A stretch of 45,519 nucleotides of DNA, taken from IMG/VR virus record IMGVR_UViG_3300021952_000008, positions 1 to 45,519 of that record. One strand, 5' to 3'. This document shows, piece by piece, positions 17,644 through 45,519 of this stretch. How positions within the stretch are numbered: position 1 is the stretch's first letter; each line of letters opens with the position of its first letter. The notes below the pieces were generated by a model. It saw only the letters and a program-made list of their open reading frames with translations, searched no databases and had not been told where the DNA came from. Source of the DNA: a virus. Position numbers and translations under genes: made by a program.

Positions 17644-17664
17644 TTACTTCTTTCCTTTGATAAG
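17641..17664 (-). repeat. Start-associated junction repeat J3
   Basis: Minus-strand copy with one change (CAAAGGAAAGAAG), which turns the tail into LIKGKK. It serves as the end of the 75-residue gene and the start signal of the 79-residue gene. Confidence 0.9.
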
Positions 17665-17892: not shown

Positions 17893-19389
17893 GGCGATAA
17901 CGTCTCGCCCAAACTCAATACCTCGTGAGCCATCCATAATCTGGCGAGTCATCTTGTAACGCTTACTTACCTTTTCCATGATTGCTTGGTCAATAGTGTC
18001 AACGGCGATCACATTCCAGATAGTCACATGGTGCATGTTAGATGCGCGGTGAACGCGGTCCTCGATCTGCTCAATGCGGTCTGGATCGTAAGGTGAGTCA
18101 AGCATTATGAGATCATCGGCAGCATCGAGATTGATACCCACACCCATAGACCCACTGAGCAGAACAACACGAAGAGAGCCACCCTGGAACTCCCGCTGGA
18201 TAGCAGAGCGTTGAGTGTCACTACTGCTACCATCAAGGACAGCACAATCAATGCCACGCTCATCTAGTTCAGCCTTGAGCCAGTGGAGAACTTTCGAGAA
18301 GCTGGAGACAATGACAACCTTCGCAGCATTATCTGCAAATGAATCTTGCTCAATAAATCCACGCTCATTAAACCACTCCAATAACCATTCGAGTTTCGCA
18401 GACTCACCACCGACCACTGGTAAAACCTTACCTTCAGCATCCTGACTCCAACTACATGTGGATAGCTGGCGAGCGCGAAGCGCAAAGACCATCGCCTCCC
18501 CACTGTCACGTTCTTCAATACGAGCATCGTAAATCTTCCTTTCTGACTCGATCTGCTGACCAAGATAAGCAGCACGCTGCTCCTTACCAAGCTCAACCTC
18601 AACATCAACATAACGCTTAGGAGGTAGCTGGGGTAGCACTTCTTGCTTAGTTCGGCGGATCATCCAAGAACGATCACGCTCAAGCCACATACCTTGGTTC
18701 TTCAGGGTAGTGGCGACCTTTATTGTGCGAGTCTTAGAGACGCGTTGTTCGTTCATCCAAAAGTTCTCTTCAAGCCAAGCCCACTTAGTAGCAATGCGCT
18801 CAGGGTGCAAGAACATCCAAGTTCCGTAACGGTTCTCCAGCTTGCCACGATCAGGCGTGCCAGAGATAGCCACACGGATGCAGTCAGAGTTCATCTTGAC
18901 CTTGTTCAAGCCCTTCCAGAAGTTGGTCAACTTGCGAGGATCTTTGATAGGTAGAACCATATGGCTCTCGTCAATGACCACGGCATCATACTCAGGAGTA
19001 ACTAGCTGAGCCACACGAACGCCTTTAGCAGTCAAGTCAAGCGCGTTGTGGTTAGCAAGAACAATGACTGGACCATCTGGGTAAACCTTGTCGAACTGCT
19101 TAGCCTTCTGGCTCGCTGTGCCCTTGCTCACATCAATCAGAGATAGGTCAGGATAGCGAGGCTTCAAGAAGCGCTCAACCGTGTCACGCCAAGTAGTCTG
19201 AGCGTTGATGATAGGGGTAACAATCAAGATAATAGACGGTCGATCGAATAGCCCAGCAAGTTCTAGTGCGCCAAGCACCTCGAGAGTCTTTCCCAAGCCA
19301 GGCTGATCGGCTAGAAGGATGCGCTTAGACTCAGCAATACGAGTGGCAGCTTCTTTCTGATAGTCGTAGAGAACTTCATCGAAAATCAC
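17872..19389 (-). CDS. SNF2-type superfamily-2 helicase/ATPase
   Basis: This 505-residue protein is started at GTG 19389, which overlaps the upstream TGA (GTGA). A longer frame to 19461 would intrude into that gene. Motifs seen are Walker A DQPGLGKT (28-35), DESH box near 138, SGTP near 176 and motifs V-VI GVGINLDAAD and QIEDRVHR near 430-448. The domain order matches phage SNF2-like DNA translocases, which remodel protein-DNA complexes or assist replication and recombination. It ends in the shared LIKGEK tail. Confidence 0.9.
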   Translation of the reverse strand: MIFDEVLYDYQKEAATRIAESKRILLADQPGLGKTLEVLGALELAGLFDRPSIILIVTPIINAQTTWRDTVERFLKPRYPDLSLIDVSKGTASQKAKQFDKVYPDGPVIVLANHNALDLTAKGVRVAQLVTPEYDAVVIDESHMVLPIKDPRKLTNFWKGLNKVKMNSDCIRVAISGTPDRGKLENRYGTWMFLHPERIATKWAWLEENFWMNEQRVSKTRTIKVATTLKNQGMWLERDRSWMIRRTKQEVLPQLPPKRYVDVEVELGKEQRAAYLGQQIESERKIYDARIEERDSGEAMVFALRARQLSTCSWSQDAEGKVLPVVGGESAKLEWLLEWFNERGFIEQDSFADNAAKVVIVSSFSKVLHWLKAELDERGIDCAVLDGSSSDTQRSAIQREFQGGSLRVVLLSGSMGVGINLDAADDLIMLDSPYDPDRIEQIEDRVHRASNMHHVTIWNVIAVDTIDQAIMEKVSKRYKMTRQIMDGSRGIEFGRDVIALIKGEK

Positions 19390-28880: not shown

Positions 28881-29091
28881 CTTCATTCTCGGCAACCATG
28901 TCTCGTAGTAGCAGATTTACTGTTGGGCATGGATACTCTACTACGCGTCCTGCGATGACTGAGCAGTGTACGCATTTCTCGCCATCAATGCCGTTTACAC
29001 GGCACTCAGCAGCGCTGTGGAGGGCATAGACGGCATTTAGCGTGGTGAACATGATTCTGGCAGTCTCTTCAACTGCATTCGTCTCTGACAT
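28864..29091 (-). CDS. Small protein at the end of the late operon
   Basis: This 75-residue protein starts at ATG 29091, which overlaps the stop of the giant gene (TAATG). A longer frame to 29118 is not needed. It has a helical start (SETNAVEETARIMFTTLNAV) and Cys/His residues in ECRVNGIDGEKCVHC. No family is recognised. Its stop codon lies in the terminator stem. Confidence 0.6.
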   Translation of the reverse strand: MSETNAVEETARIMFTTLNAVYALHSAAECRVNGIDGEKCVHCSVIAGRVVEYPCPTVNLLLRDMVAENEETPSE

Positions 29092-32000
29092 TATTTTTGC
29101 CCCGTATTCTTTAGCCACTCGTTGAAGCGAGCGGAGTTTTCTAGTTTTGTTGTCTTTTGCATGTTAGGCGATGCAGGCTCCATAAGACCCATACCTGACA
29201 ATTTCTTGATCAGTGAAAGGGTTGACTTATTTGCATCAGTACCAGTAAGAAGGTTACCAAAGGCACCAGCAGCTTGTCCAGGACCACCAAGTTCTGGTGC
29301 AACAAATTCGTTGAACCAGTCCATTGGAGTAGAGATATTCAAGCCTTGACCAGTTACTGGGTTGCGCTGGAAGATTGCCTTATAGATAGGTGATGCAGCA
29401 AGCATCATGTTCTTTGCAGGAACTGCTGCTAGCTGAGGGAAGATACCAACTGGGCGACCATTGCTAACACCAATAATGTTTTCTGCAAATGGCTTACTTA
29501 GGTCAACCTGCATTCCCCAGAAGTTGATTGCCTGAGCATAGATCAACTGAGGGTCAGCAACAATAGGTTCAGGCGTAGGTAATGCGCTTCCAGTAAATAG
29601 AACCTGTCCAACCTTAGAAGTTAGGAAGCTTGGAGCCAAATTATTGCTCGGATAAGCAGTTCCAGTATTCTGTGGGTTGTAACCGTTTAGGGTATTTAGG
29701 TTGTAGAGAAGATCCTGAGCAATGTTGATGCTTCGGTTGTTCTCTAGGAATAGGTGCATGGTTGCAACCTGAGCCATACGCATCCAGGTGTAGTAAGAGG
29801 TTGCTAGACGACCATACTTACGCTCAAATGGACTAAGGCTCTTTGCGGTTGGCTGCCAAACTGCAAGTTCCTTGACCGCAGCATCAATACCTTCTTGCAG
29901 GTTCTTCCAAGAGCGAGACTGCAAAATGTGCATAGCATGCGTGATACGCAAGGCATTACCATGTGCAGCAGCAATATCTCCAGGAGCACGAGTGATGTTA
30001 CGCTCAATTTGACGAGCTCTAGCTAGAGCAGCACGACCCTTGATCTTGCCAGCAACATCTGCCTCACCAAGTGATCTAGTGTCAGTGAATAGATTATCTT
30101 CAAGACCAGTGATATCTTGCGTGTAGATAGATTCTTCGAAAAGACCTGAATCCTCGAATACCTTCATGATATCTTCGTCTGTGTAGCTTACGCGCTTACC
30201 CTTTTCGATAACGCTGACAAACTGTCCAAAGTCAAGGCCCTTAGTAGGCTGCTCTAGAGTACGACCTTCAAAGCCAGATGCACGAAGAAGTTGCTCCATC
30301 TTTTTTGAAGTAATTTCTGCATCCTTGATGATGCCCTGCTTAGTATGCCAGTCAGTAGCTACCTTTTCAGCAAAGTGCTTACGAGCAAGGCGCATACCAA
30401 TACCATAGTGAGCTGGGTTAGTTACACCACGCATCATCATCATGGTTGATGTTCCAGTAAAGTTGTTAATGTGGTGAGCTGGGTTAACAATGGTTTGCAA
30501 AGCCTTGACCATACCAGTTAGCTGCATTACAGTGCGAATAACCACATTTGAAGGTGCAGTGAATTGGTAATCCCAGTCACGCATAGCCTGACCGAACTGC
30601 TCAGCAAGATGAGGTGGGAATAGCATATCTTCTGGGACGCTATCAAGCATTAGGTTAGATCCGCCGTCACCAGCAATCATCTTTACATAGCCCTTATTGA
30701 TTGCCTCAGCAGGAGATATTCCCTCAGCAAGGTGGCTAAAGCGTGCAGCAAATCCACGACCTAGACCAGTCTGGAACTTTGCAGCAGCAGCAGCCTGCAT
30801 AATGTTAGAGATCGCTAGCAGTGGGTCAAGTTTTGCAGCAGCAAAGTCAGCCTTACGCTCTTCCCATTTTAGGATTTCACCAGTATCTTCTAGGATGCTA
30901 GCTGGACGAGTACCAAATGGAAGTTCACTAAGCAAGCGCCACATGTCTTCGGCTGCATAGTTTTCAATTCCTGCTGGAATACCAGAGCGTACACTCATGT
31001 TTACAGTCTGTAGAGCCTTCTTGAATGCAGCACCAGAGATTCCAGCATCAATGAATCCATTGCCATTGCCGCCCTTAGTACCAAATAGCAAGTCAGTTGC
31101 AGGCTTTAGTTCCTGAGCAAACTGAAGGATTGCTGGATCAGTGTTTTTGATTATCTCATCGGTGATGTCAACATGGTCACGAATAAGCGTGATTGCCTCA
31201 TCAAACTGTTCCTGAGAAAGCCCTGAGTGACGGATACGCAAATCATCCATGTAGCGAGCAAACTGTGATGCTGCACGGAAGGTTTGGGTTTCAAGTTGGA
31301 TCTGCAAAGGTTTGATTTCTTCGCGTCCCTTGAAGCCATAGAGATCAGATAGGGTAATCTTCTTGAAGCGACCACTACCCCACTTTTCAGTAGTTGTGCG
31401 TAACTGCATTACAGCTGGTTCAACAGCTGGATTCATGTGCTCAACAACAAATTGAGTTTCAGCCTGAATACCTCGGTCATGCAATGCTTCAAGCATCAAT
31501 GCAGGCACATCTTGCTCTGGAATACCAGTATTATCAAAGTGACCAGCATCAATTTCATCGCTTAGCTGAGCTGCGATGTCCTCACGGCGACCACGGATGA
31601 TCTCATCCTGAGCCTTCTCAATTTGCAAGTTTTCCTTCTTCAGGAAGGCAGCTTGCTGCTTCTTTGAGAGCAAAGTGTGCTTTGGAACTAGAACTTTCTG
31701 CTCAGTTGCAGCGAGCGCCTTGTCACCAGCAGAGAAGTTGTTAAGCATAGTGCGGAAGTTAGCCCACTCCTGCTTATCAAGAATGTCAACATCTGCGATC
31801 TTGCCACGCAAGGTTAGGATTTGCGACCATGAGCGGAATGCTGCAGAGGCTAGAGGACCGCTACCAGCGTTGAAGAAGTCACCAGCAGTTGCCAGCTTGT
31901 TCAAGTGTGAGCGCATTAGCTTTACAGTCTCAGCAACGCTTAGATCGCCATTTAGAGCGTTTAGGCGGATGGCATCCCAGAGAGTAGCAAAAATGTCCTG

Positions 32001-35000
32001 AGCAACGCTGTGTGACTTGTTGATAACTCGGTTAGCTAGACCAATACTCTTAGTTAGGTGAGCATTCTTCATAGCCTCAATAGTTACTGGATCTGCAAGC
32101 TGTGCTGCTAGGCGCTCAGCAAGCTTTGGCATCTTTGCAAGGAATGCTTCAGTTGGGGCTACTGATGGGGTAGCAACGCCATCCTGGACCAGCTTAGCTA
32201 GCTTCTCCATATCGATTGCGGCACCAGCGGCATCTTGCTCTAGAACATAGCGAGCACCTTCACCGAGGTTCTGGTGGAGGAATGAGTCGCGCTTATAGTT
32301 CTTACCGCCTGAGAAGAATGCGTCCTTGATAACCTGGCGACCGCCCTCAACAGCATCAAATGCCTTAAAGATATCTCCACTGTGTAAGTAAACAAGATGC
32401 TTAGGTTCGCCAGTTTTTTTAGTTAACGCAGTAACAATCTTGTTTCGCTGGATGCGAATACCTAGCAAACCAAGTGCTGCAGATATCTTTTCAAACTCAT
32501 TGATGGTTTCTTCAAATAGATAATCCTCAATTGAGCCAAGAGCCTTCTTAGCTTTACCAAAACGGTCACGCGCAATACCAGTGATTGTAGATGCGACATA
32601 AGCATCGAAGACCTGGTTTACCTGCTCAGGAAGTGCTGCACGACCCACCCAAGCCTTTTTGCTGACTCGGTTAGTGATGTCACCATAAAGTGATACGGTT
32701 TCGTAGCTGCCCTGTGCAGCCTTGATCTCATCTAGGTTTGCGCCAAGTTTCTGGAACGCAGTGTTCATCGCCTCAGTAGCGATGTCACCAGCAGAGTCAA
32801 CATTGTTCTTTAGGATAGTTGCAAATGCTTCTGGGCTTTCAGCCATTTCTGCAAGGCGGATGAATTCAGGGGTAAGTACAGAGTCACCATTTGCGGTTAG
32901 TGCTGGTCCGTGGAATGCATCAGCAGAATCAGAGAATACGCTTGATAGAACATCGTCATAGCCGATACCTTCAACCTTGAGCATGTTGCTGAAGTCTGCG
33001 GTGAATAGGATTTTTTTCTGTACGTCATTGATGGTCTGTACGCCAAAGCCAGAGACAATGCTCTTCAGGAATTCAGTATCCTGCTTCTCAACTGCGTCCT
33101 CAACCTGCTTAATAATCTTCTTAGCTGGGTCAAGAGCGCCAATAACCTTTGCAAGATCAGGAGCTGAGATAGAGTCGCCACTAGCAAGACCAGCAATGAC
33201 ATCCTCAAATGAGGTGTACTTGACGGTCTTTGATGCTGCCTCTAAATTCTTTTCTAGAGCAAGGTACTTATCCATTGCCTCTTGAGTAGGCTTTGCATCT
33301 AGGATGCCAGTTGCCTTGATCTTCTCAGCAATGTCAGCGCCAAACATAGTCTTGATCTGCTCGAACTTTGCAGTAGAAACAGATGCTTTGCCAGCACTTG
33401 CAATCTCAGTAGCAATGCCCTCAAGCGCCTTTAGAAGGTTATTCATAGTGCCCTGAGGGTAAAGCTTTACATTCCAGCTCTTACCGCTTAGAAGTGAACC
33501 AATGGTAGTCTTTTCGCCAGCCTCAGTCATCACTGGAGTTGCGTCAATGATACGAAGCAAGGCACCCTTAGCTTCGTTGTTGCCGTACATGAGTGACTCG
33601 CGCAGAGCAACTGGGTTGTATCCATCTAGGCGAGATGCTAGGCGGATACTCTCAACAGCTTTCTTGGCGGTATCAGTCGCAAATACGCGAAGCTTTATGG
33701 CTAGGTTCTTTGACTTGATAATGTCGCGCAAAGCAGTACGGTCTACAGCCTTGATACCTACCTGAGTTCCAGAGATCTCAGAACTTGCCTTCTGTACATC
33801 CTTGAGTACCTTCTGAGCAGCCTTACCCTCAGCTGAAGTTGGCTTAATCTTTGCAATGTCTGCAACGCTCACGGTAGGCTTGGTAGCCTCTGCAATAGGC
33901 GCAGCTCCAGTTGTAATGCGGGCAGGCGTAATCTGACCAGTGTTGATCTTGTCGGCTGCTGCAGTAGCCTCAGCCTTAGTCTTGTGCACAGTAATTGAAT
34001 CGCCCTGGCGAACAACCCACTTGTTGTTGTCCTTGAGAACCTTAGCTTCCTCTACTAGACCAGCAGTAGTGTTCTTTACATATGCAGTTGCATCCCCTAC
34101 AGAGGCAAATTTGCGTAGATTGCTACCATCAAATACATAAGAATTACCATCAGTTGCTTCATGTACTACATTCTTTCGTAGTTCAACCTGACTGCCATTT
34201 TCTGCAGCTAGCTTGATCGCTTCCTTAGTGGTCATTACAGGAGCCTGTGCGGCTTCTACAGGCTTTGGAAGCTCAGGTATAGGCATAATCTCGCCCTGAG
34301 GAATTGTGCCCTTCTTGATGCCGTCTACGACCGCCTGAGCTTCCTTACGGGTTGTTACCTTAGCAATTTCTTCACCATTGCCACCCATTACCTTGAATCC
34401 ACCAGTTTTGAAGTCTGGGTGAATCATTGCAGTTGGGGTCTTTACGAATACGCCAGAGACTTCATTCTTGACAAACTTCTCAAGGAATTTAGTTGCCTTT
34501 TGTGCAGTAGCAACCTGCTTATATGCTTTTCCAGCAGCGTCAAGGGCAGATAGAAGAACTGGGTTAGTTAGACCAGTTGAATCTTTATAGGCTGCAATAT
34601 CTTCTGGGGTTAGTTTTACAGTTTTGATCTGGCTGTCAGCAATTTTCTGTTCTGCAGCAGTTTGAACCTCAGCGGCTTTACCAGCACGACCCTTAAGGTT
34701 TGTTGGAATAGTTGTGCCTTTAGGCAAGCGAACAGATGGAGTCTGCTCAGCAGCCTTAACTGCAGTTTCTAGTGATGCACCAGAACTAATTTCTGCACCC
34801 TTGAGTGCGCCCTTAAGTACATCAACGCTAATGTTTCCAGCTTTTGCAGCACTAAGTTCTTTAAGAAAAGTGCTTGCAGCGGTCATTGCTGGCTTTGCAG
34901 CCTTTACCCATTTAACTGGGTTTACAGCAATAAGAGGATCATGGGTAAGGTCATACGCAAGACCTTGACCAAGTTCCTCAATGGGAGCAATGTCTGGATT

Positions 35001-35645
35001 CTTAAGCTTGGCAATGTCAGCGCCATACATTGTTTTTTCGTTTGGACGAAGGAATGCGGTTGCGTTTTTTGCCGCAGCTCCAACACGGCGCTGCTCAATC
35101 TTCGAGACTTCGGTTGGGTCAGTAACCGTTGGTTTAAGATTCCAAACAACCTGACCATTGACGACTTTAGAAGTTACCTTTTTACCATTGATCTTTTCGC
35201 CATTGATAGCAGCAGTAACAATGTCATTGTGGGTAATAAGACCCTTTTGGAAATCAAGTTCACGCTGATAATCAGAACCAGCAATAGCAGCATTACCAGA
35301 CTGCAATGCGTTTAGAACAAACGATCCAGCAGAGACAATTGGAGCCATGACAGTGCCAGTAACTTTACCTACTGGGCTATTTGCAATGTCGTTTGCAGTC
35401 TTCTGAACTTTTGGAAATACTTCATTAGCATTTTTTAGGATGCCAGTAGGGGTCTGCTGCTTCATGAATGAGTTGATATCAAACCCAGTTTTAGGGGCAA
35501 CTGGAGTAGATGCAGCAGGCGTAACTGGCTTAGTTACCTTAGGCTTGCTAGGACCAAATAGATTGGTGCTAGGAGTTACCTTAGTAGTTTTTGAGCCCTT
35601 AGAAGAACCTGAGGTGCCGTCAAAAAGATTGTCTGAGCCAGCCAA
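29091..35645 (-). CDS. Giant virion protein, putative internal/ejection protein (2,184 residues)
   Basis: It starts with TTG at 35645, the only option after an in-frame TAA, with AGGATGG six bases upstream. The N-terminus is Ser/Thr/Pro/Lys-rich and disordered (about 1-55), followed by long Ala/Lys-rich helical stretches, and the last 400 residues are mixed (HHINNFTGTSTMMMMRGVTN near 1790-1850). It sits at the end of the tail/internal protein run, where short-tailed phages encode large ejection proteins. I see no lysozyme, protease or polymerase motif, and no tape-measure-like transmembrane segments. Confidence 0.75.
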   Translation of the reverse strand: MAGSDNLFDGTSGSSKGSKTTKVTPSTNLFGPSKPKVTKPVTPAASTPVAPKTGFDINSFMKQQTPTGILKNANEVFPKVQKTANDIANSPVGKVTGTVMAPIVSAGSFVLNALQSGNAAIAGSDYQRELDFQKGLITHNDIVTAAINGEKINGKKVTSKVVNGQVVWNLKPTVTDPTEVSKIEQRRVGAAAKNATAFLRPNEKTMYGADIAKLKNPDIAPIEELGQGLAYDLTHDPLIAVNPVKWVKAAKPAMTAASTFLKELSAAKAGNISVDVLKGALKGAEISSGASLETAVKAAEQTPSVRLPKGTTIPTNLKGRAGKAAEVQTAAEQKIADSQIKTVKLTPEDIAAYKDSTGLTNPVLLSALDAAGKAYKQVATAQKATKFLEKFVKNEVSGVFVKTPTAMIHPDFKTGGFKVMGGNGEEIAKVTTRKEAQAVVDGIKKGTIPQGEIMPIPELPKPVEAAQAPVMTTKEAIKLAAENGSQVELRKNVVHEATDGNSYVFDGSNLRKFASVGDATAYVKNTTAGLVEEAKVLKDNNKWVVRQGDSITVHKTKAEATAAADKINTGQITPARITTGAAPIAEATKPTVSVADIAKIKPTSAEGKAAQKVLKDVQKASSEISGTQVGIKAVDRTALRDIIKSKNLAIKLRVFATDTAKKAVESIRLASRLDGYNPVALRESLMYGNNEAKGALLRIIDATPVMTEAGEKTTIGSLLSGKSWNVKLYPQGTMNNLLKALEGIATEIASAGKASVSTAKFEQIKTMFGADIAEKIKATGILDAKPTQEAMDKYLALEKNLEAASKTVKYTSFEDVIAGLASGDSISAPDLAKVIGALDPAKKIIKQVEDAVEKQDTEFLKSIVSGFGVQTINDVQKKILFTADFSNMLKVEGIGYDDVLSSVFSDSADAFHGPALTANGDSVLTPEFIRLAEMAESPEAFATILKNNVDSAGDIATEAMNTAFQKLGANLDEIKAAQGSYETVSLYGDITNRVSKKAWVGRAALPEQVNQVFDAYVASTITGIARDRFGKAKKALGSIEDYLFEETINEFEKISAALGLLGIRIQRNKIVTALTKKTGEPKHLVYLHSGDIFKAFDAVEGGRQVIKDAFFSGGKNYKRDSFLHQNLGEGARYVLEQDAAGAAIDMEKLAKLVQDGVATPSVAPTEAFLAKMPKLAERLAAQLADPVTIEAMKNAHLTKSIGLANRVINKSHSVAQDIFATLWDAIRLNALNGDLSVAETVKLMRSHLNKLATAGDFFNAGSGPLASAAFRSWSQILTLRGKIADVDILDKQEWANFRTMLNNFSAGDKALAATEQKVLVPKHTLLSKKQQAAFLKKENLQIEKAQDEIIRGRREDIAAQLSDEIDAGHFDNTGIPEQDVPALMLEALHDRGIQAETQFVVEHMNPAVEPAVMQLRTTTEKWGSGRFKKITLSDLYGFKGREEIKPLQIQLETQTFRAASQFARYMDDLRIRHSGLSQEQFDEAITLIRDHVDITDEIIKNTDPAILQFAQELKPATDLLFGTKGGNGNGFIDAGISGAAFKKALQTVNMSVRSGIPAGIENYAAEDMWRLLSELPFGTRPASILEDTGEILKWEERKADFAAAKLDPLLAISNIMQAAAAAKFQTGLGRGFAARFSHLAEGISPAEAINKGYVKMIAGDGGSNLMLDSVPEDMLFPPHLAEQFGQAMRDWDYQFTAPSNVVIRTVMQLTGMVKALQTIVNPAHHINNFTGTSTMMMMRGVTNPAHYGIGMRLARKHFAEKVATDWHTKQGIIKDAEITSKKMEQLLRASGFEGRTLEQPTKGLDFGQFVSVIEKGKRVSYTDEDIMKVFEDSGLFEESIYTQDITGLEDNLFTDTRSLGEADVAGKIKGRAALARARQIERNITRAPGDIAAAHGNALRITHAMHILQSRSWKNLQEGIDAAVKELAVWQPTAKSLSPFERKYGRLATSYYTWMRMAQVATMHLFLENNRSINIAQDLLYNLNTLNGYNPQNTGTAYPSNNLAPSFLTSKVGQVLFTGSALPTPEPIVADPQLIYAQAINFWGMQVDLSKPFAENIIGVSNGRPVGIFPQLAAVPAKNMMLAASPIYKAIFQRNPVTGQGLNISTPMDWFNEFVAPELGGPGQAAGAFGNLLTGTDANKSTLSLIKKLSGMGLMEPASPNMQKTTKLENSARFNEWLKNTGQK

Positions 35646-35693: not shown

Positions 35694-36815
35694 TTACCAA
35701 CGAGGGGTACTTGAGGTAGAGGTAGCCTTAGGGTAGGTAATGCTGTTGAAGTAATTTTTAGCAGTTGCCTTTAGGTCAACCTGAGCTGCCTGAGGAAGAC
35801 CAGATACTCGAGGACCAAACTTTTTAATCCAAGCGTTATACGCAGCAGTTGCGTCCTTCGGACGACCAGCCTGAATGTTGTCAAGCTGAGTCTGAAATTC
35901 AGCTGCAGTTCCAGTTCCATAAGTATCTCCAACTCGCTGTAGGGTGCCAGTTAGATCCTTAGTGTAAGTAGTCTTTTTCGCAGTACCGCCAGATGACTTC
36001 TTAGCAGCAGCGGTGATCTGAGCAGCACCAATACGAGCACTAGCAGCAGTCTTAGCAACTGCAAGTTTGTTAGCAAGGTCAGCAGCCTGCTGAGCAGCCT
36101 GGAAGTCATTGCTTGCAATAGCCTGATCGCGTGCCATCTTAGCCTGAGCAATCTGGGAATCAATACCCGCAGTCTGACCACCAATAGCAGCCAAGGCATC
36201 CTGTAGATTCTGGCTAAGCTGAGTGTTTGCAGCAACCTCCTGCTGACCATAGCCAGCGCCACGGTTAGTTACATCGGTGATTGCGTTAGCCTGCTGAGCG
36301 CCCATCAGGCCTTCCCAGTTTTGCTGGATAGCATTTGACTGACCAATACCCTGCTCGGTTGCAGTAGCAGTAGGAGAACCCTGTAGAGCTGGACCATTGC
36401 CACGCTCTGCACCAGTTACGGCAGCCTGAGCAGTTCCAGCAGCCTGAGCCGCACGCTGTTCAGCAGTTCGAGCTGCTAGATCCTGCTGCTGCTTAAGAAC
36501 TGATGACTCAAACTGTTTGTTGATAGTAGCTTTGTCTTTGTCTGAGATGCCAGTTAGGGCACCAAAGATGTTCTTTAGGTTTGCAGCGTTCTGAGCGTAG
36601 CGATCCTGAGTGGTCTGCTGCTGCTTTGCGTAGAAGTCAAGGATTGGCTGGTAGCTAGACTGAATCTGAGCATTGCTCTTGTCAAGGAATGACTGGTTAG
36701 CCTTTGCAGCCTGAGAATCTAGGTATGCCTGATACGACTGCGGAGAACGCTTAGGGTCTGGAATTGCAGTAATGCCTGCAGTTGCTGGAGTAACTGGAGT
36801 AGTCGGAGTCGCCAT
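35694..36815 (-). CDS. Putative internal virion protein (Gln/Ala-rich, 373 residues)
   Basis: This is a helical, Ala/Gln-rich protein: SYQPILDFYAKQQQTTQDRY near 54-73 and QAAQAAGTAQAAVTG near 123-139. The C-terminus contains an AAYNAWIKKFGP element. The composition is like the P22 gp7/gp16/gp20 and T7-type ejection proteins, which are stored inside the capsid and injected. It overlaps the preceding gene by one base. No enzymatic motif is seen. Confidence 0.6.
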   Translation of the reverse strand: MATPTTPVTPATAGITAIPDPKRSPQSYQAYLDSQAAKANQSFLDKSNAQIQSSYQPILDFYAKQQQTTQDRYAQNAANLKNIFGALTGISDKDKATINKQFESSVLKQQQDLAARTAEQRAAQAAGTAQAAVTGAERGNGPALQGSPTATATEQGIGQSNAIQQNWEGLMGAQQANAITDVTNRGAGYGQQEVAANTQLSQNLQDALAAIGGQTAGIDSQIAQAKMARDQAIASNDFQAAQQAADLANKLAVAKTAASARIGAAQITAAAKKSSGGTAKKTTYTKDLTGTLQRVGDTYGTGTAAEFQTQLDNIQAGRPKDATAAYNAWIKKFGPRVSGLPQAAQVDLKATAKNYFNSITYPKATSTSSTPRW

Positions 36816-37495
36816 TACTGGATTCCCATCTTTGCTAGTTGTGCAGTTAGCGCATTCTGGGCAGCCTGCGTCTTATAGTTCTGACCGATTAGAGTGCCAG
36901 TCCAGTCATAGCCAGCCTGGTTCTGGTTGCCATAGTTCTCTAGGTAGTTCTGGTTTAGCGAAGCAATCTGATCCTTGATGTCAGTCTGCGCGGTAATCTG
37001 CTTAGCATTAGCCTGCATCTCAGCAAGAGTTAGCGCGCCAGCAGCACCGCCAGCCATGCCACGAGCTGCATAGTTGCCAGCAGTTCTACGCCGTGCTTCA
37101 GTTGCATTTAGATCAAGATTACGGCGCTCATTGCTGAGCTGCATTTCCTGAGTGTTCTTATTTGCCATTGCAGCAGCACGAGCAGCATTGAACTGTGACT
37201 GACCTGAAGCCATCGCTGCTTGATAAACTGGATCACTCTCGAGTGAATAGGCGTTGCCTACTACAGCAGGTGGCTGAGAAGTTGCATCTGCAGCAGCTGG
37301 AGTTTCAGCTGGCTTGAGTGCTTCGTTCTTTGCTACAGCGGTGTAGTCAATAGCAAGAGGCTGGCGACCAATTTTGATAGGCTGCTGAGATGCAGCAGCA
37401 ATACCAGCAGCAGTATTTGTGTTTACATGAGGAGCATACTCATTAGCAAGTGCAGCTTTGCGGGCTAGATAGTCTAGCGAGTCAGCAGTTGGCAT
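36815..37495 (-). CDS. Putative internal virion protein (Ala/Asn/Gln-rich, 226 residues)
   Basis: This 226-residue, mainly helical protein is rich in Ala, Asn and Gln, with a central AARAAAMANKNTQEMQLSNE stretch and a C-terminal IGQNYKTQAAQNALTAQLAK. Stop and start overlap neighbours by one base at both ends. Together with the 373- and 2,184-residue proteins it would form a set of ejection proteins, as in other short-tailed phages. Assigned by composition and position. Confidence 0.55.
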   Translation of the reverse strand: MPTADSLDYLARKAALANEYAPHVNTNTAAGIAAASQQPIKIGRQPLAIDYTAVAKNEALKPAETPAAADATSQPPAVVGNAYSLESDPVYQAAMASGQSQFNAARAAAMANKNTQEMQLSNERRNLDLNATEARRRTAGNYAARGMAGGAAGALTLAEMQANAKQITAQTDIKDQIASLNQNYLENYGNQNQAGYDWTGTLIGQNYKTQAAQNALTAQLAKMGIQ

Positions 37496-37719
37496 TACAT
37501 GAACCTCCCAGCATTTGCATTTCCAAATGCTCCAGCCTGCTTAGCTTTCAAAGCAGCGAGCGCTGCGTTGCGCTTTACAGCAAGTTTGCGGTCACGGTTA
37601 GCGTAACCAGTTTTGTCAACAGCACCGCGAGTTGGTGAAGATGCAACGCTGTTGTAAATCTTTGCACCCGCAGCGTAAGGGGTGAACTCAAAAGTGCCTA
37701 GCGACCCGCGCTCTGCCAT
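37495..37719 (-). CDS. Small basic virion-associated protein
   Basis: This 74-residue basic protein (GYANRDRKLAVKRNAALAAL) has a Gly/Ala-rich end (AGAFGNANAGRFM). It is coupled by one-base overlaps to the nozzle gene before it and the internal-protein gene after it. No family is recognised. DNA or nozzle binding is possible. Confidence 0.55.
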   Translation of the reverse strand: MAERGSLGTFEFTPYAAGAKIYNSVASSPTRGAVDKTGYANRDRKLAVKRNAALAALKAKQAGAFGNANAGRFM

Positions 37720-39374
37720 TAGTTAGCTCCCTTAGAAATCTTTGCCTTCGCACCAATCATTGGAGTAATGCTGAAGACCTGTACAGGTGATGTAAACGCC
37801 GTACCGTCACAGTTCAAGTATAGTTCAAAGTACATGCGTCTAAAGCGAAGGGCATGGTTGAGCTTGGTTTCCATTCGGAGAACCTGCCCAGTAGGGAAGC
37901 TATCAACAATAGTCGCAACTGCGCTAGTTGGCTGAGTGATGTTATCCCAGGTTCCAAAGTTGATATCGCCAGAACCATCGAATGATAGGTCATCCCAGCT
38001 CTTGAAGCCAGTTTCACCATCAAAGTCTTTAGAGATCTGGTCCCAGTTTGCTGATGGCGCAGTCGCAGGAAGCGCAACAGGATAGGCAATCGCCTTGATT
38101 GGCAATGCTGAAGCAAGGTCAACAGTCCAGAAGTAGAGGCGCTTCCATTCCACAGGTGACTGGAAGTCGTAGATCTTTGTGCGTAGTGAGCACTGGAATG
38201 ACTCTGAACCAATAGCCGAGTTTGGCTTATCTTCAATACGATAAAGCGAGAATGCTGAAGCGCCTACATCTGCAGGATTACTGGCTCCAGTAATACCAAA
38301 GTAAAGCGATTCTTCTAATTCTTCTGCGCGCCTCGGTACGGTAACGAAATACGCGACTCTGTTTGTGCTTTCCCACTCGCTCCACGTCTCAGTGTCTAGG
38401 TTGTAGGCGTACATTCCGCCATTATGCCAGACTAGCGCACGGCGACCAATAATGGAAACTGCGTGCTCAAAACGGCGAGCAAAATCATAGCCCTCGAACT
38501 TTACCTTCTGGGCATTGAGTGGGTAGTAAAGCCAGTTCTGGTACTTGTAGAGAATGCCGCCAGATAGGACAAAGTGAGCGTTCTCAAACTTTACAACTGA
38601 TCGCTTTGACTCTGCACCAATATCCTGCTGCATAGCCTGCATGGTACCTTCTTCAGGCACATCACCATAGCTATAACGGTAGGTAGAGCGGTTACGGAAG
38701 ATAACGATGTCGTTGTAGCCCTGTGCGATTGCGGTGATCCATTGACCGTCACCGCCACCGATTTCAACATACATAAGGTTATTATCAACATTGGTCCATA
38801 CCCAGACAGAAGTTGATTCGCCTGATGGTCCAGCAGTTGAAACATTGCCCCAGTAAATAATGTTTGCGGTGCTAGTTCCCTTGACTCCAAAACCAAAGAA
38901 GCGGTTCTGGAATAGTTCTATACCAGATAGGTGAGGCATAGAAGTGGTTGCGTGGAAGGTGCCAGCTTCCCAGTATCCGCCAGATTGGGTTTCACAGCAG
39001 AGCACGATCTTGTTCAGGTACTGCGTGCAGTCCGAAGCTTTGAAGGTTGCAATCTGAGTCCAAGCATGAGTGATCACATTGAAGATCCAGGTCTTGCTGT
39101 TAGTTGATGCAACTAGGTAGCGATCTCCGCCAGCCTCAACATAAGTTCCTAGGATATCAAACGGCTCGCCAGCAACTGGAGTTACAACATTTGCCCCAGA
39201 GTGCTTCTGGATGTAGATAGGCGGGCGTGACATAAGAGCACCGTTAGGTGAGAACTCAAAGTTGATAATCGAAGCAAGTTCATTATCAGCAATGGCTGAC
39301 TGGTCCCAGTAGTTGTTTAGACCACCAGTAAACTGCTGCAGAGTAGCTGAGCGTTGACGGATGACTGTTGACAT
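37719..39374 (-). CDS. Tail nozzle / tubular B-like protein
   Basis: This 551-residue protein is rich in beta strands and aromatic residues. It begins QQFTGGLNNYWDQSAIADNE, with repeated blade-like segments containing W-x-N and YxYxLDTETWSEW. It directly follows the adaptor gene. Order and size match the nozzle of short-tailed phages (T7 gp12 type, P22 gp10 type), which closes the tail tube. The call is from context and fold-like pattern rather than a specific motif. Confidence 0.7.
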   Translation of the reverse strand: MSTVIRQRSATLQQFTGGLNNYWDQSAIADNELASIINFEFSPNGALMSRPPIYIQKHSGANVVTPVAGEPFDILGTYVEAGGDRYLVASTNSKTWIFNVITHAWTQIATFKASDCTQYLNKIVLCCETQSGGYWEAGTFHATTSMPHLSGIELFQNRFFGFGVKGTSTANIIYWGNVSTAGPSGESTSVWVWTNVDNNLMYVEIGGGDGQWITAIAQGYNDIVIFRNRSTYRYSYGDVPEEGTMQAMQQDIGAESKRSVVKFENAHFVLSGGILYKYQNWLYYPLNAQKVKFEGYDFARRFEHAVSIIGRRALVWHNGGMYAYNLDTETWSEWESTNRVAYFVTVPRRAEELEESLYFGITGASNPADVGASAFSLYRIEDKPNSAIGSESFQCSLRTKIYDFQSPVEWKRLYFWTVDLASALPIKAIAYPVALPATAPSANWDQISKDFDGETGFKSWDDLSFDGSGDINFGTWDNITQPTSAVATIVDSFPTGQVLRMETKLNHALRFRRMYFELYLNCDGTAFTSPVQVFSITPMIGAKAKISKGAN

Positions 39375-40037
39375 TTATAGCCAATCTGCTGGGTCTGCAA
39401 GAACCTGATCGTAGAGTGAAGACTCGATTACGCCATCCTTGTTGCTCAGGCGGTTTAGACCATCGCGGAACTGGCGATCCTTGTATGCAGCAGCGTCATA
39501 GTTCTCGTCCATTTCCAAAGCCTGTGAGATGACGTAGTTGACTAGCTGGTTGAAATAGCGGTCAGGAATGTTGATGGTATCAGTCAGCGCAGTGATTGAA
39601 GTTGGGTTTTTGATGTACTCAAGCTTCAAGCCGTTAGTAATGGTCTTGTTAGGAACTGGGTAGAAGGTTACTACGCCAGCACGCTCGTACCAGATCTCTG
39701 GGCGGTCAGCACGCTGAAGCTTAGTTGGGTCAGACTTCATGATGAACTCACGCGCTTCCTGCGGAGTTACATTCTCAATTGGGTAGCCGTCAACATAGAT
39801 TGCTTCGATTAGAAGAACCTTGTCGCTTGGGAAGGTGTAGTCGCTCTGACCTGACACAATGTCAGTAAGCTTCATGTCACGAAGAATTGGGTTTGAGTTT
39901 ACAATCTCTCGCTGACCATCGTTGATCCAGTGAAGGATTGATGCGTCTTCAAGCTGAGCTCCAGAAGCATCACCAAACTGCGAGCGAACTCGTGAGCCGA
40001 TGTCGTTTCCTGTGTAGGAGAATTCTTCTGCTGGCAT
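39375..40037 (-). CDS. Head-to-tail adaptor (tubular A-like)
   Basis: This 220-residue protein has an N-terminal helical part with LEDASILHWINDGQREI (about 29-45), typical of portal-adaptor proteins. A middle PEIWYERAGVVTFYPVP (about 133-149) is a form I recall in gp6-like/DUF6682 adaptors. It lies between the capsid block and the nozzle, as expected for the ring joined to the portal. Stop and next start are adjacent. Confidence 0.8.
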   Translation of the reverse strand: MPAEEFSYTGNDIGSRVRSQFGDASGAQLEDASILHWINDGQREIVNSNPILRDMKLTDIVSGQSDYTFPSDKVLLIEAIYVDGYPIENVTPQEAREFIMKSDPTKLQRADRPEIWYERAGVVTFYPVPNKTITNGLKLEYIKNPTSITALTDTINIPDRYFNQLVNYVISQALEMDENYDAAAYKDRQFRDGLNRLSNKDGVIESSLYDQVLADPADWL

Positions 40038-40039
40038 GC

Positions 40040-40456
40040 TTACCTTCTAAGAGTTTGACCGTCATGACGGTAGGTGTTCTTGTTGGACTTCATGATGGAC
40101 TTCATGACATCCTTTTTCTCGGCACGCCACTCTTCCTCGCGCTTTGCCTCAAGCGCAGCATTTGCCATCTCTAACAAGTGTAACTTATTCACCTTGGAAT
40201 TAGGGTCGTGCATGTTGTTTTCTAGTAGACGAGCAACTAGGCGGTGATCAACCTCCGACTCTGCAACATTGGTAATTAGGTAGGCAGGGAGCATGTGAGG
40301 CTCATCAATCAAAGCAAAGTGGCGCTCTGGGTCAAACTGTGGGTGATCGTGAGGCATACGAATAAGTCGCACAGTTGGGAAAATATCTTTAATTACTGCG
40401 GCTACTCTGCGATGTTCATCTGAGTGCAGTCCGTCTATCTGCGAGAAATCAATCAT
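40040..40456 (-). CDS. Hypothetical head-region protein
   Basis: This 138-residue protein has a mixed N-terminal half (IDGLHSDEHRRVAAVIKDIF; RMPHDHPQFDPERHFALID) and a basic helical C-terminus (EAKREEEWRAEKKDVMKSIM). It lies between the capsid terminator and the adaptor gene, two bases before the latter. It may be a head-completion or stabilising factor. No family is recognised. Confidence 0.6.
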   Translation of the reverse strand: MIDFSQIDGLHSDEHRRVAAVIKDIFPTVRLIRMPHDHPQFDPERHFALIDEPHMLPAYLITNVAESEVDHRLVARLLENNMHDPNSKVNKLHLLEMANAALEAKREEEWRAEKKDVMKSIMKSNKNTYRHDGQTLRR

Positions 40457-40470
40457 GTATCTATTGTAAT

Positions 40471-40516
40471 AAAAAACCCCGCTACTCGGCGAGACGGACC
40501 AAGTAGCGGGGAGTTT
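40471..40516 (-). terminator. Terminator downstream of the capsid gene
   Basis: CCCCGCTACT (40477-40486) pairs perfectly with AGTAGCGGGG (40502-40511). On the minus strand the stem ends in TTTTTT (40476-40471), a textbook rho-independent terminator. It lies 17 bases after the capsid stop and should limit expression of the adaptor and later genes. Confidence 0.92.
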
Positions 40517-40527
40517 TTATTTACGGC

Positions 40528-41745
40528 TTATAGCTCAGCGATGTTCGAGAGCTTAGCGTGTGCGTTGCGGCGGTAGGTACCAAGTTCGCTGTACTGGAAG
40601 ATGGTTGCCTTGTATGCATCTGCATCAGCAACGCGGTTCCACATCGAACCATCGCGGTCCATCCATGCCCAGTCGCGCTTACGGTTGATAACCAACTCGC
40701 TCGATGATAGAGCGTATAGGGTACCGACTGGAGCTGCGTAGTCAGAGACGAACTTGATTGGCTTACCTAGAGCCTCGAAGGTGAATGAGCGCTGACCACC
40801 AGTTAGACCTGCGCCGTTAGTGAACTGACGCATACCCTGAAGCAAGTTCCAGTAAGCGTTGTAAACACCAGGTGAGGCTAGGAATACGTCAACGTCGCCA
40901 CCCTGCTTGTCAACCTTCTGAACGAGGTTGATTAGGTTTAGCTCGGTTAGGGTACCTGGGGTACCTACTGAGCCAAGGGTTGAAACAGTTGAGTTCCATA
41001 CTGGAACAGTTGCACCGTCAATGCCGTGGAGCGAGTTGCCAGAAGCAACGATTGCGCCAAGACCAGTTAGTTCCTTGTTGAAGTTGTTAGCGCCGTTTGA
41101 TCCACGAACGATAACGTCACCAGCAACAGCGGTAACTGAACCTGAGAAGGTAACTGCACCAGTTGCTTCGTTAACTGCAGTAACAGTTAGACCAGCGTTC
41201 TTTACAGTTGGGGTGCCGTCAACTAGGTCAGTGCCTAGAAGTACGTCTACAGTCATATCTGGCTCAATCCAGTGAGCGTCAACGAAGACAATAGTGGTGC
41301 CAGTTGCGGTGGTCTTAACGGTACCGAGGATACCAGTTCCGTCACCGTAGATCTGGCGGTTTAGGTCGCGGGCAAGGTCCTTCTTTAGACCCTTGATTTC
41401 GTTGTCAACTACGTTGATGAATGCGTTGTAGTTGTCAGCAGCCTGCTCGAATAGCTGACCGTCAACCTCGATAGAGCCGTATAGGTTCTTGAGGTATAGG
41501 TGAGCCTGCTTGTACTTCTGAGCACCAGCAGTTGGAAGAGCTTCGCGTACGCCACGAGCACCGATACCGTTGTTACGACCGATGTGGGTGTCGAAGATTA
41601 CTTCTTTACCGTTCTGGGTGATGTTCTGTGATGATGATTCGATGAACTCCAAAGCTGGGTTCTTGTCGCGTAGCTGCTCGTGAAGGTCGCCGTAGACTAG
41701 CTTCAGAGCGTCAGATGCGAAGGTTAGGATTCCCTGACCTGCCAT
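40528..41745 (-). CDS. Major capsid protein (HK97-type)
   Basis: This 405-residue protein has an N-terminal helix (LTFASDALKLVYGDLHEQL), an E-loop-like region (DTHIGRNNGIGARGVREALP), a P-domain spine helix with NVVDNEIKGLKKDLARDLNR, an Ig-like insert (about 145-220, VTAVNEATGAVTFSGSV) and an A-domain ending in VSDYAAPVGTLYALSSSELV. That order fits HK97-fold capsid proteins. It follows the scaffold gene and is flanked by terminators, suggesting a separate strong transcript. The ribosome site is AGGAGAG. Confidence 0.88.
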   Translation of the reverse strand: MAGQGILTFASDALKLVYGDLHEQLRDKNPALEFIESSSQNITQNGKEVIFDTHIGRNNGIGARGVREALPTAGAQKYKQAHLYLKNLYGSIEVDGQLFEQAADNYNAFINVVDNEIKGLKKDLARDLNRQIYGDGTGILGTVKTTATGTTIVFVDAHWIEPDMTVDVLLGTDLVDGTPTVKNAGLTVTAVNEATGAVTFSGSVTAVAGDVIVRGSNGANNFNKELTGLGAIVASGNSLHGIDGATVPVWNSTVSTLGSVGTPGTLTELNLINLVQKVDKQGGDVDVFLASPGVYNAYWNLLQGMRQFTNGAGLTGGQRSFTFEALGKPIKFVSDYAAPVGTLYALSSSELVINRKRDWAWMDRDGSMWNRVADADAYKATIFQYSELGTYRRNAHAKLSNIAEL

Positions 41746-41755
41746 GATTCACTCT

Positions 41756-41815
41756 CCTAAGAGTAAGTTTGTAAAACAAAGATTATTTGTGCCCTCTGCC
41801 CTGACCACTCTTAGG
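41756..41815 (-). promoter_or_regulatory. Capsid mRNA leader with inverted repeat reaching the ribosome site
   Basis: CCTAAGAGT (41756-41764) and ACTCTTAGG (41807-41815) on the plus strand are perfect 9-base inverted arms. In the minus-strand mRNA the downstream arm ends within UUAGGAG, the ribosome site of the capsid gene. A TAATCT -10-like hexamer lies between the arms at 41785-41780. The segment 41746-41849 otherwise holds no gene. Confidence 0.4.
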
Positions 41816-41849
41816 TGGCTGTACTTAGACAGTTCCAAGTTTATAGCAT

Positions 41850-41888
41850 AAATAAACCCCTCCGCCTTGTGAGCAAAGGGGTTTATTA
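41850..41888 (-). terminator. Terminator downstream of the scaffold gene
   Basis: AATAAACCCCT (41851-41861) pairs perfectly with AGGGGTTTATT (41877-41887) with a 15-base loop. It lies 11 bases after the scaffold stop at 41899. The stem ends in a U-rich strand on the minus side, giving a moderate terminator between scaffold and capsid genes. Confidence 0.85.
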
Positions 41889-41898
41889 GTTTTTCTAG

Positions 41899-42741
41899 TT
41901 AGCCTTGTTTGGCTCGCTGGGCGAACATCTGGCGAAGCATTTCACGCTTGCCCTTGTCGTCCTTTGGAATGCTTAGATCTGGGGCTACAACACCCGCTCC
42001 ACCAGCATTTCCAACGATTGTAGGTGCTGCTTCAGCCTGACCTGCAGGAGCAAAGCCACCTGGAATCATCTGGCTTAGTTGTCTAGCAGCTTCGGCTACT
42101 GAGATCTCACGACCTGCGTTTAGGGCAGAGTTCATGATGTCATAGATTGCGATCTCGTGAGCCTCATTGATGTTATGCTGAGCCTTTAGCGCAGCCATCT
42201 CGGACTCTAGCTCTACGGTAAAGCGATCAGTTTCTTTAGCTAGTTCCTGCTGATAAATGTAATCATCAGCTTCAGACTGCTTAGCCTTGAGCGCATCAAT
42301 CTCTCGCTGAAGCGCCTTAGGGATGTGCTCGCCCTCGAACATGTCCTCAAAGTCTTCACCGGACTCTTCTTCCATCATGTCCTGAGCAACCTGCTGTGCC
42401 TCGTGAGCGAGCAGACCCTGATCCTTTAGGTAAGTCTGTAGTGACTCGTACACCTCAGCTGGGTTTGACTCAATCGCACGAGCAAGGTTCAAGCCACCCT
42501 TGATTAGGTCAGCCGAAACTCCCTCATCGACAAGATCCTTGAACGGAGTGTACTTCTCTAGCTGCTGCTGGAAATACTTGTCCTGCTCCTGTAGGTACGG
42601 GGTTACCTTCGAGTGCCAAGCCTCTGGCAGCTCAGCGAGCAACTTATCATACGCTGGATGTACTTTAGCTTCTTCTTGCGTATCTACTGAAGAATCAATC
42701 TCAGTAGTCTGTTCAGGTGATACCTGCGTCTCGTCAGACAT
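41899..42741 (-). CDS. Scaffolding protein (complete copy)
   Basis: This 280-residue acidic, helical protein has an N-terminal acidic arm, a very acidic block (about 123-138, MEEESGEDFEDMFEGE), a predicted coiled coil (about 145-190) and a short basic C-terminus (about 259-280, PKDDKGKREMLRQMFAQRAK), as in scaffold proteins whose basic tail binds the capsid protein. It lies between portal and capsid genes. Residues 1-169 are duplicated at the left window edge. Confidence 0.85.
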   Translation of the reverse strand: MSDETQVSPEQTTEIDSSVDTQEEAKVHPAYDKLLAELPEAWHSKVTPYLQEQDKYFQQQLEKYTPFKDLVDEGVSADLIKGGLNLARAIESNPAEVYESLQTYLKDQGLLAHEAQQVAQDMMEEESGEDFEDMFEGEHIPKALQREIDALKAKQSEADDYIYQQELAKETDRFTVELESEMAALKAQHNINEAHEIAIYDIMNSALNAGREISVAEAARQLSQMIPGGFAPAGQAEAAPTIVGNAGGAGVVAPDLSIPKDDKGKREMLRQMFAQRAKQG

Positions 42742-42749
42742 GTTTTTCC

Positions 42750-44903
42750 TTACTGTAGTTGCTGAGCTGTCTGCCCAGTTTGATCTGGCATTCCCTGAGC
42801 CTGCGGTGAGGCTTGTGGGTTACCCTGTGCAGCAACCTGCATAGCCATTTGTTCGGCTTGCTGCTGCTGCAAAGCTGCTTGGTGCATTGCAATATGCTTC
42901 TGGAATTCAGCCTTGATGCTGTCATCCAAGGTCTCAAATGACTGAGACTTGCGGAAACGGTTGTGAACCTCAATGTGTACTGCGTGGTTATCATAGTCAT
43001 GGACCTGAATAACCGCAGGAACCTGAAGTGGAATAGGCTGACCATTTGCATCAACCTGTCCAGGAATAACCTTATCTGGCTGACCCTGCGCTGCGCCCTG
43101 TTCCCACTGCATCTGGAACTGCTGAATCATCTCAGGGGTGAGCTTCTTCATCATTAGGTTCTCGCGTGATGCGTGATTCTCATCAAGCTTGATTAGGTTG
43201 TAGAAGTTCTTGAGCATACCCATGTCAAGGATCTTCAAGCCATCCTGTGGAGAAATGAAGCCCATCTTCATCCACTCTGTGATCAGCGACTGACGTGCTG
43301 ACTTTGAAGTAGGAAGCGCTGAGCCTGACTCGATGCGAATGTCATTGCCTGATGCAATATCTGCACCTGAAAGCATTGACGCATCAAATGAGCCGTCAAG
43401 ACCAGTGGTTTTTACTAGACGCTCAGAGGTTACATACTGGATGAATAGACCTAGAGACTGCTTAGCAGTCTTCTCGATTGCTGCCTCAATGCTTGAGAAT
43501 ACGGTTGCGAGGTAAGAGTCATCACGTTCCTGCAAGTAGTTAATTGCAGTTGCAGCAGTTACGCCACCATTGCCACCGCGAGAAACCTGGTGCTGACCTG
43601 AGATATCTTCGAAGTCTGCCTGAAGGTGCTCTAGCTCCTGCAGGACATAGCCTGGAAGTGGCTGGATTGGGACTGGCGTGGGGCGTGAGAAACCTGGGCG
43701 TACAGGGATCCAGATACCAGCCTTAGCTGAGACCTTCTTCGGGTCAACTGAGCCCTCGTCGTACATCATCTGAGGCTTAGCCATAAGGTTCTTAGCCTGA
43801 ATGATTTGTGAGCGGGTGCGGTTGAGCTCGCGCTGCAATGGAATCAAGTTCTTGATTACAGAACGGCGATAGAATTTTCCAGTTGGGATGCTGTAAGTGT
43901 GAGCAAAAGGGTACTGCTTGTGAGAGTAAGGAATGCCATTCTCAGCAAACTGCACGATCTCGTTGTCAACGATAGTTACGAGACCACCCTTTGGTAGGAA
44001 TGGGCAGCCGTTTGGCTTAGCCCACATCTCGATAACGAGAACCGCGTCAGGCTTTGAAGTTAGTGAGCCACGGTTGTCCATTAGGGCTGCATCAAGGATC
44101 TCAGTTGCTGAAACCTTAGCTGGAACGAAGTCTGCTGGTAGAACGCCAGAGAAGTTAGTCCTTACCCACTGCTCGCTCTTGGTGTACACATTGAAAATGT
44201 ACGGCTGGTTCTCTAGATCTTCTTCGGTCGTGTCGGGCACGAACAAGTGGAACGGAGAAATAACTTCGTGCTCTACGTCACCAGTAGAGACAACCTGCTG
44301 GATTACACGCTTCTGCCCAGTGTATGGGTCCATGACTGGGGTTGGCTCGATCTGCTTAGCAGATGAGTCCCAATAGGTCTTGATAAATGCGTTACCCGTA
44401 ACTGCACGCCAGAATTCCGACTTCTGTAGGATCTCTGTCTGGAAGTTAGCCTTGTTGTACATTGCCTGCCAGACCTGCTCGGCGGCCTGTGCTGCCATAA
44501 GGTCATCGTCATCGTTTGATGCAGGAATAACGGTTGCACTTGGGTGACCTGAGGTTGTCTTAGCAATCTCGGTACGGATGATTGGCTCGATACGGTTGAT
44601 GGTGATACGAGGCGTACCTGATGGGTTTGGCGGAGCCTGGAGGATCTGACCATTGCCCTTCTCAACCCACTCATGGTACTGCTTGCCGTTGTAGAAAGCA
44701 AGCTGGAGGTACCAGTCTTGCTCTTCAAGCTTGCGAGCCTGCTTTGCCTTCTCATACTCAGATTTCACCCATGCGACTAGCTTCTTAGAAGAGTCCTTCT
44801 TCTTGAACTGGTTGAGGATTGAATCTCCAGCCATTTCACCTTCGAGCTGGGTGCCCTGAATGTACTGACCATCTTTGCCAGCAAAGTATTGCTCGTTAGC
44901 CAT
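42750..44903 (-). CDS. Portal protein, copy B
   Basis: This 717-residue protein is collinear with copy A (517-2670). Differences seen by eye include A39S, A95S, V-to-M near 193 in TPVMDPY, KTNFAG to RTNFSG, PPDF to PADF, SRGNSGG to SRGGNGG and changes in the Gln-rich tail. All core motifs are intact, so both copies appear functional. The predominance of silent changes indicates purifying selection since the lineages split. Confidence 0.9.
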   Translation of the reverse strand: MANEQYFAGKDGQYIQGTQLEGEMAGDSILNQFKKKDSSKKLVAWVKSEYEKAKQARKLEEQDWYLQLAFYNGKQYHEWVEKGNGQILQAPPNPSGTPRITINRIEPIIRTEIAKTTSGHPSATVIPASNDDDDLMAAQAAEQVWQAMYNKANFQTEILQKSEFWRAVTGNAFIKTYWDSSAKQIEPTPVMDPYTGQKRVIQQVVSTGDVEHEVISPFHLFVPDTTEEDLENQPYIFNVYTKSEQWVRTNFSGVLPADFVPAKVSATEILDAALMDNRGSLTSKPDAVLVIEMWAKPNGCPFLPKGGLVTIVDNEIVQFAENGIPYSHKQYPFAHTYSIPTGKFYRRSVIKNLIPLQRELNRTRSQIIQAKNLMAKPQMMYDEGSVDPKKVSAKAGIWIPVRPGFSRPTPVPIQPLPGYVLQELEHLQADFEDISGQHQVSRGGNGGVTAATAINYLQERDDSYLATVFSSIEAAIEKTAKQSLGLFIQYVTSERLVKTTGLDGSFDASMLSGADIASGNDIRIESGSALPTSKSARQSLITEWMKMGFISPQDGLKILDMGMLKNFYNLIKLDENHASRENLMMKKLTPEMIQQFQMQWEQGAAQGQPDKVIPGQVDANGQPIPLQVPAVIQVHDYDNHAVHIEVHNRFRKSQSFETLDDSIKAEFQKHIAMHQAALQQQQAEQMAMQVAAQGNPQASPQAQGMPDQTGQTAQQLQ

Positions 44904-44907
44904 AAAC

Positions 44908-45240
44908 CTATTCCATATCGCTTAGGCGTGCTTCAAATGCAGCGTCCATCAATTTAGCCTCAGCCTCTAGTCTAGCAAGTTCAAGCTCATCCCCAGTTTG
45001 AATAAGCCCAGTAAAGGGCTCTTCAACATAACTTGAGACTGCGTTAACTTGCTGAAACGCCAGAGGGTCCTTGCTTGCTAGCAGGTTTGATAGGTGGATT
45101 AGCAGCTCGCTTTGATCGCTGTGCATCGTCAGCAGGTTGTGCGACTGATAGTTCAGACTTTTCAGCACTCTCTGCAAGATCAATACTGTCGCTGTAAGAA
45201 ACAGCGAAGACAAAATCAGTAACGCTACTACGAATTCCAT
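44908..45240 (-). CDS. Small membrane protein overlapping the zinc-binding gene, copy B
   Basis: This 110-residue protein differs from copy A at residues 12 (L to S), 66 (S to N), 70-71 (NF to SY) and 103 (D to E). The hydrophobic segment is otherwise unchanged. It has the same overlap with the zinc-binding gene and the same 4-base spacing to the portal. Conservation in this frame is the main reason to accept the gene. Confidence 0.7.
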   Translation of the reverse strand: MEFVVALLILSSLFLTATVLILQRVLKSLNYQSHNLLTMHSDQSELLIHLSNLLASKDPLAFQQVNAVSSYVEEPFTGLIQTGDELELARLEAEAKLMDAAFEARLSDME

Positions 45241-45511
45241 TAATAAGTTCCTCTACAAGTTCTGGGACGCGAGCTAGTTCTAGCTCATGGGCCTCAATGT
45301 CAGCCTCAAGGTTATAGATCTGCTCCTCTAGTGGAGCAAGTTCTGCATAGCCAGCAAAGACCGCTAGTTCGCCTACGCACTTCTTGCATAGCAAGTTGTT
45401 TCCGCCATCATAGCGAGTGCCCTGAATGTCGTATAGGTTCTTGTTGTCGCCACAAGAAATGCAAGTCCCAGGGAAAGGACCGCCGTTTTCAAAGTAAAGA
45501 AAGTGTCTCAT
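45044..45511 (-). CDS. Zinc-ribbon plus coiled-coil protein, copy B
   Basis: This 155-residue protein keeps all four zinc cysteines (17, 20, 42, 45). It differs from copy A in H25N, F33Y and several residues of the coiled coil (for example AHERELARIP to AHELELARVP). There are five changes in the tail that overlaps the membrane-protein gene. The terL end follows at 45513. Confidence 0.75.
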   Translation of the reverse strand: MRHFLYFENGGPFPGTCISCGDNKNLYDIQGTRYDGGNNLLCKKCVGELAVFAGYAELAPLEEQIYNLEADIEAHELELARVPELVEELINGIRSSVTDFVFAVSYSDSIDLAESAEKSELSVAQPADDAQRSKRAANPPIKPASKQGPSGVSAS

Positions 45512-45519
45512 TTTATCCT

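Follow-up and report, generated by a model that had tools for sequence, protein, structure and literature searches.

Non-identical ends of a 45,519-base phage contig very probably represent one locus of a circular-mapping genome read from two strains

Terminal-redundancy heterozygotes are classically described for T-even phages and T5; those of T5 were reportedly the subject of Fischhoff et al. 1976. JGI-type metagenome assembly has used metaSPAdes with -k 33,55,77,99,127 (PMC7171226), and the lengths of terminal repeats pile up at assembler k-mer sizes according to CheckV (PMC8116208). Inter-strain chimeric contigs of de Bruijn assemblers have also been discussed (PMC11443906) and are named in the CheckV discussion as artefacts that are not yet detected (PMC8116208). 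The DNA that we analyzed (the window) is an entire IMG/VR viral record of 45,519 bases. It encodes proteins of a tailed phage, namely a P22-like portal, terminase large subunit, major head protein, RusA-like resolvase, primase/polymerase, SNF2-type helicase, and collagen-like tail fibre. Its left end (copy A) recurs in altered form at its right end (copy B), and the features of both copies are listed in Table 1.

Table 1. Positions of the features in and around the two copies, with the observations on which each assignment rests.
Feature	Position	Strand	Evidence
Full unit, circular-mapping phage genome (strain A)	1-42233		L006 joins 42233 to 1, 0 differences/8,870 bp; relatives 41.4-46 kb, same circular order
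Shared 127-mer, first occurrence; contig start and putative assembly-graph branching point	1-127		Identical to 42234-42360; exact 127-bp terminal overlaps in four relatives
Shared 127-mer, second occurrence; path leaves strain A for strain B	42234-42360		Copy comparison and L006
Strain-A allele, portal/membrane/CxxC region	128-3286		L006 matches 1-2465 exactly, directly after 35829-42233
Strain-B allele, same region; 3,159-bp sister-strain tail, 5% divergent, not a second gene copy	42361-45519		171 mismatches, dN/dS 0.02-0.18
Portal gene, allele A, 717 aa	517-2670	-	ORF comparison; families matched on the B allele
Portal gene, allele B, 717 aa	42750-44903	-	P22_portal PF16510 and phrog_156 matches
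110-aa ORF, hydrophobic N-terminus	A 2675-3007; B 44908-45240	- (A)	No family match
155-aa ORF, two CxxC motifs	A 2811-3278; B 45044-45511	- (A)	No family match
280-aa gene (between portal and major head protein), allele A, fragment cut off by the contig end	2-508	-	Full-length version at 41899-42741
280-aa gene across the A-to-B switch, strain A/B hybrid	41899-42741	-	phrog_33339; switch 42234-42360 inside the gene
Terminase large subunit, present once, after copy A and not after copy B	3280-4815	-	phrog_5653, Terminase_6N; same neighbour in 11 relatives

Direct comparison of window positions 1-3286 with 42234-45519 aligned 3286 bases at an offset of exactly 42,233 with 0 indels. We found 171 mismatches (5.2%, or 94.8% identity), transitions accounting for 133 of them, and in places a whole codon is swapped between the copies. 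The two portals, each 717 aa long, differ at 12 amino acids as against 101 synonymous codon differences, and their mismatches are distributed 11/6/104 over codon positions 1/2/3 (dN/dS ~0.04). The 110-aa membrane-type ORF and the 155-aa CxxC-type ORF are intact in both A and B, and dN/dS across the A and B alleles is 0.02-0.18. The third-position bias, the excess of synonymous changes, the intact ORFs, and the dN/dS values demonstrate that copies A and B are two real, selected sequences and not read errors; neither allele is disrupted, and purifying selection acts on both. A sequence-only reading of this DNA had described ends that match at a fixed offset without an indel, differ by a few percent at mostly synonymous sites, and keep their reading frames open, with 717 portal residues in both; the comparison bears this out.

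The two small ORFs had no match in Pfam or PHROG. They overlap out of frame by 197 nt (2675-3278 and 44908-45511), and all 17 sequences examined have such an overlap, of 167-263 nt, at a position between portal and terminase in every case. Elsewhere in the window there are four 33-nt direct repeats (17011-17043, 17398-17430, 17638-17670, and 17866-17898) with a spacing of 228-387 nt, which contain ...CTTATCAAAGGAGAGAAGTAAATGA... on the minus strand and resemble a repeated ribosome-binding site and start codon at successive small genes. The ORF at 29091-35645 has a TTG start and encodes a 2,184-aa protein whose sole family match is one PHROG of unknown function. This giant protein appears to evolve very fast, because its best-segment identity is just 21-36% in relatives with portals that are 67-93% identical. 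The tail fibre gene (5535-7484) encodes an Mtd_N domain and collagen repeats, and its internal repeats (5777-6644) match one another at ~77-100%.

The distribution of identity along the two copies is uneven. Bases 1-127 are perfectly identical to 42234-42360 and base 128 is the first mismatch, a feature absent from the sequence-only reading's description of the ends. With copies that diverge by 5.2%, a run of exactly 127 identical bases before the first mismatch would arise by chance with a probability of ~6e-5; this value assumes evenly spread differences and serves as a guide only. The copies also share an internal identical stretch of 141 bases at 2558-2698, and their final 73 bases are identical.

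An independent contig (IMGVR_UViG_3300021956_000397, here L006), used over its entire 8,870 bp, corresponds to window 35829-42233 followed directly by 1-2465, with 0 differences over 8,870 bp. When L006 was compared with the version of this region that continues into copy B, there were 129 differences; since the left part contains no mismatch, all of them must fall at 42361 or further right. No copy B lies between the left flank and copy A in this contig. Since base 1, in its A version, directly follows base 42233 in L006, the unit genome is 42,233 bp and 42361-45519 is an alternative allele. Strain A thus forms a closed circle with its junction at 42233|1.

When the portal was used as a query, a large group of related contigs was found, in which the complete-looking members are 41-46 kb long. 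Exactly one portal is present in 34 of 34 related records tested, 15 of which are longer than 41 kb. A gene-level comparison of eleven records showed a constant order (head protein, 280-aa gene, portal, 110-aa ORF, 155-aa ORF, terminase, RusA), and the contigs end at differing map points on one common circular gene order. A search of the annotated phage collection gave only a short match to an Arthrobacter-phage portal. One in-frame TAA inside the portal alignment was observed in IMGVR_UViG_3300046787_000428, 3300032305_001058, and 3300010388_000281, reflecting either an early stop or alignment past the C-terminus.

Terminal overlaps are common among these relatives. Four of ten near-complete ones (G012, G014, G015, and G019) have an exact terminal overlap of 127 bp. 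Given this count, the metaSPAdes k list, and the pile-up of repeat lengths in CheckV, 127 bases is what circular closure would be expected to leave behind in this collection. Another relative (G021) has a 147-bp terminal overlap with one mismatch. A further one of the ten near-complete relatives (IMGVR_UViG_3300022746_000035, 42,639 bp, here G018) begins and ends with 734 bases that are 93.3% identical to each other; at one edge of the overlap 126 bases are identical (first mismatch at base 127), and at the other exactly 127. This overlap lies in the major head protein gene, not the portal, showing that the inexact overlap tracks contig ends and not any particular gene.

Copies A and B are each other's nearest relatives (94.8%), and, with L006 set aside, no other relative exceeds 89.6% identity to either. 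Where A and B differ (171 sites), the bases of other relatives agree partly with A and partly with B, as expected for alleles of one population; L001, for example, has 89 A bases, 64 B bases, and 18 others. The relatives' alleles side with A and B in a mixed way, and neither copy is clearly ancestral. Exact-pattern searches for the strain-A or strain-B alleles gave no match in other contigs, and strain B, whose specific sequences were found in no other contig, is known only from the tail of the window. Searches with the terminase and primase for more contigs of the same strain returned, except for L006, only relatives at or below ~92% identity. Two strains ~5% apart in the portal region probably co-occur.

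These results make it almost certain that the non-identical ends are one locus of a ~42.2-kb circular-mapping phage read twice, the second time from a related co-occurring strain, and that they arose in assembly and not by gene duplication. The window would be a short-read metagenome contig of a phage genome that maps as a circle, either because it is circularly permuted or because it is joined in concatemers, and both strains would have been present in the sample. In a de Bruijn graph with k=127, the shared 127-mer at position 1 would be a vertex with an A exit and a B exit. The contig would leave this vertex by A, go once round the circle, and return to the same 127-mer, from which the unused B exit would extend it by 3,159 bp until the contig end. 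Read pairs presumably carried the path through the 141-base shared run. On such a path the repeated ends would be alternative alleles of a single locus and not separate genes carried by one molecule. The observations agree with such a closure: the terminal identity equals one assembler k-mer, 127 being in the JGI k list; the unit closes as a circle in independent data; and the relatives are single-copy with contig ends at arbitrary map positions. Against it, the contig end has 73 identical bases and not 127, leaving the end point unexplained (coverage loss, a dead end, or another branch), the 141-base run would also be a graph branch at which the tail could switch strain, and the exact-pattern searches gave no second contig with the B allele.

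The sequence-only reading had offered either the assembly of two mixed strains or a tandem duplication. The first is favored by the 127-base prefix, L006, the single-copy relatives, and G018. In the second, the portal, membrane, and CxxC genes would be truly duplicated, in tandem or dispersed, within a single genome. This reading draws on the intactness of both copies and on their dN/dS, which is well below 1, but two strains would be just as likely to carry intact alleles. Were the genes duplicated in this way, the left flank would be separated from copy A by copy B, whereas L006 joins flank and copy A directly. No second portal was found in any of the 34 relatives, and the terminase is present once only, adjoining copy A. 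The copies sit at the two ends of the record with no internal copy-copy junction, and no single molecule was seen to carry two copies with a junction between them or between flank and copy. We therefore consider true gene duplication extremely improbable and, from L006 and the single-copy relatives, ruled out. Errors introduced by sequencing or polishing into an exact terminal repeat are the least credible source of the differences, because 104 of the 121 portal mismatches are at third codon positions and the mismatches are mostly transitions, include no indels, and in places replace whole codons; the codon bias rules out this source.

A terminal-redundancy heterozygote would be a headful virion whose redundant ends carry different alleles, derived from a concatemer recombined between two co-infecting strains. 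The P22-like portal and the many points at which the relatives open fit permuted, terminally redundant genomes, and 45.5 kb is, by simple arithmetic, 108% of the 42.2-kb unit, a plausible headful. The phenomenon is also already named in the literature. Yet it predicts neither an identity of exactly one k-mer at the contig start nor the 126/127-base signature of G018, and we consider it very unlikely as the source of these ends. Two alleles 42 kb apart would be beyond phasing by short-read assembly, and the record would then be no evidence for such virions even if they exist. There is thus only a slight chance that a genuine recombinant concatemer, or a terminal-redundancy heterozygote, of two phage strains underlies the record, in which case natural virions would have two portal-region alleles.

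The repeated ends are an ordinary assembly artefact. Their biological weight is small, consisting of two strains ~5% apart in the portal region that appear to co-occur and a record that holds the complete 42,233-bp unit. Contigs of this type are complete genomes overlooked by an exact terminal-repeat test, and they are over-long, with a chimeric tail that would raise gene counts (to 'two portals'). A simple diagnostic is a stretch of exactly k identical bases leading into an inexact terminal overlap, a sign that two records of this phage group show clearly.

Compared with known systems, the window is unlike phages of the T5/T7 type, which have identical direct terminal repeats and fixed ends, since its ends have 5.2% mismatches and its relatives open at differing map positions. 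It resembles the heterozygotes of headful phages in having differing alleles at the two ends of a terminally redundant genome, but those are physical molecules, whereas nothing in the window requires one and the 127-base signature speaks against it. As in the inter-strain chimeric contigs of de Bruijn assemblers (PMC11443906), the path would change strain at a shared k-mer; here, however, the switch coincides with circular closure and both alleles of one locus are in one contig. As in the k-mer-length terminal overlaps of circular de Bruijn contigs (CheckV, PMC8116208), which four relatives display at exactly 127 bp, the contig starts at and returns to the same k-mer. Unlike those, the path in the window runs 3,159 bp past the shared k-mer on another strain, and the resulting overlap is long and inexact and therefore invisible to an exact-repeat test. 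The closest counterpart is G018, a member of the same phage group with an inexact terminal overlap and k-sized identical edges, which differs from the window in that its overlap is 734 bp long at 93.3% identity and lies in the major head protein gene.
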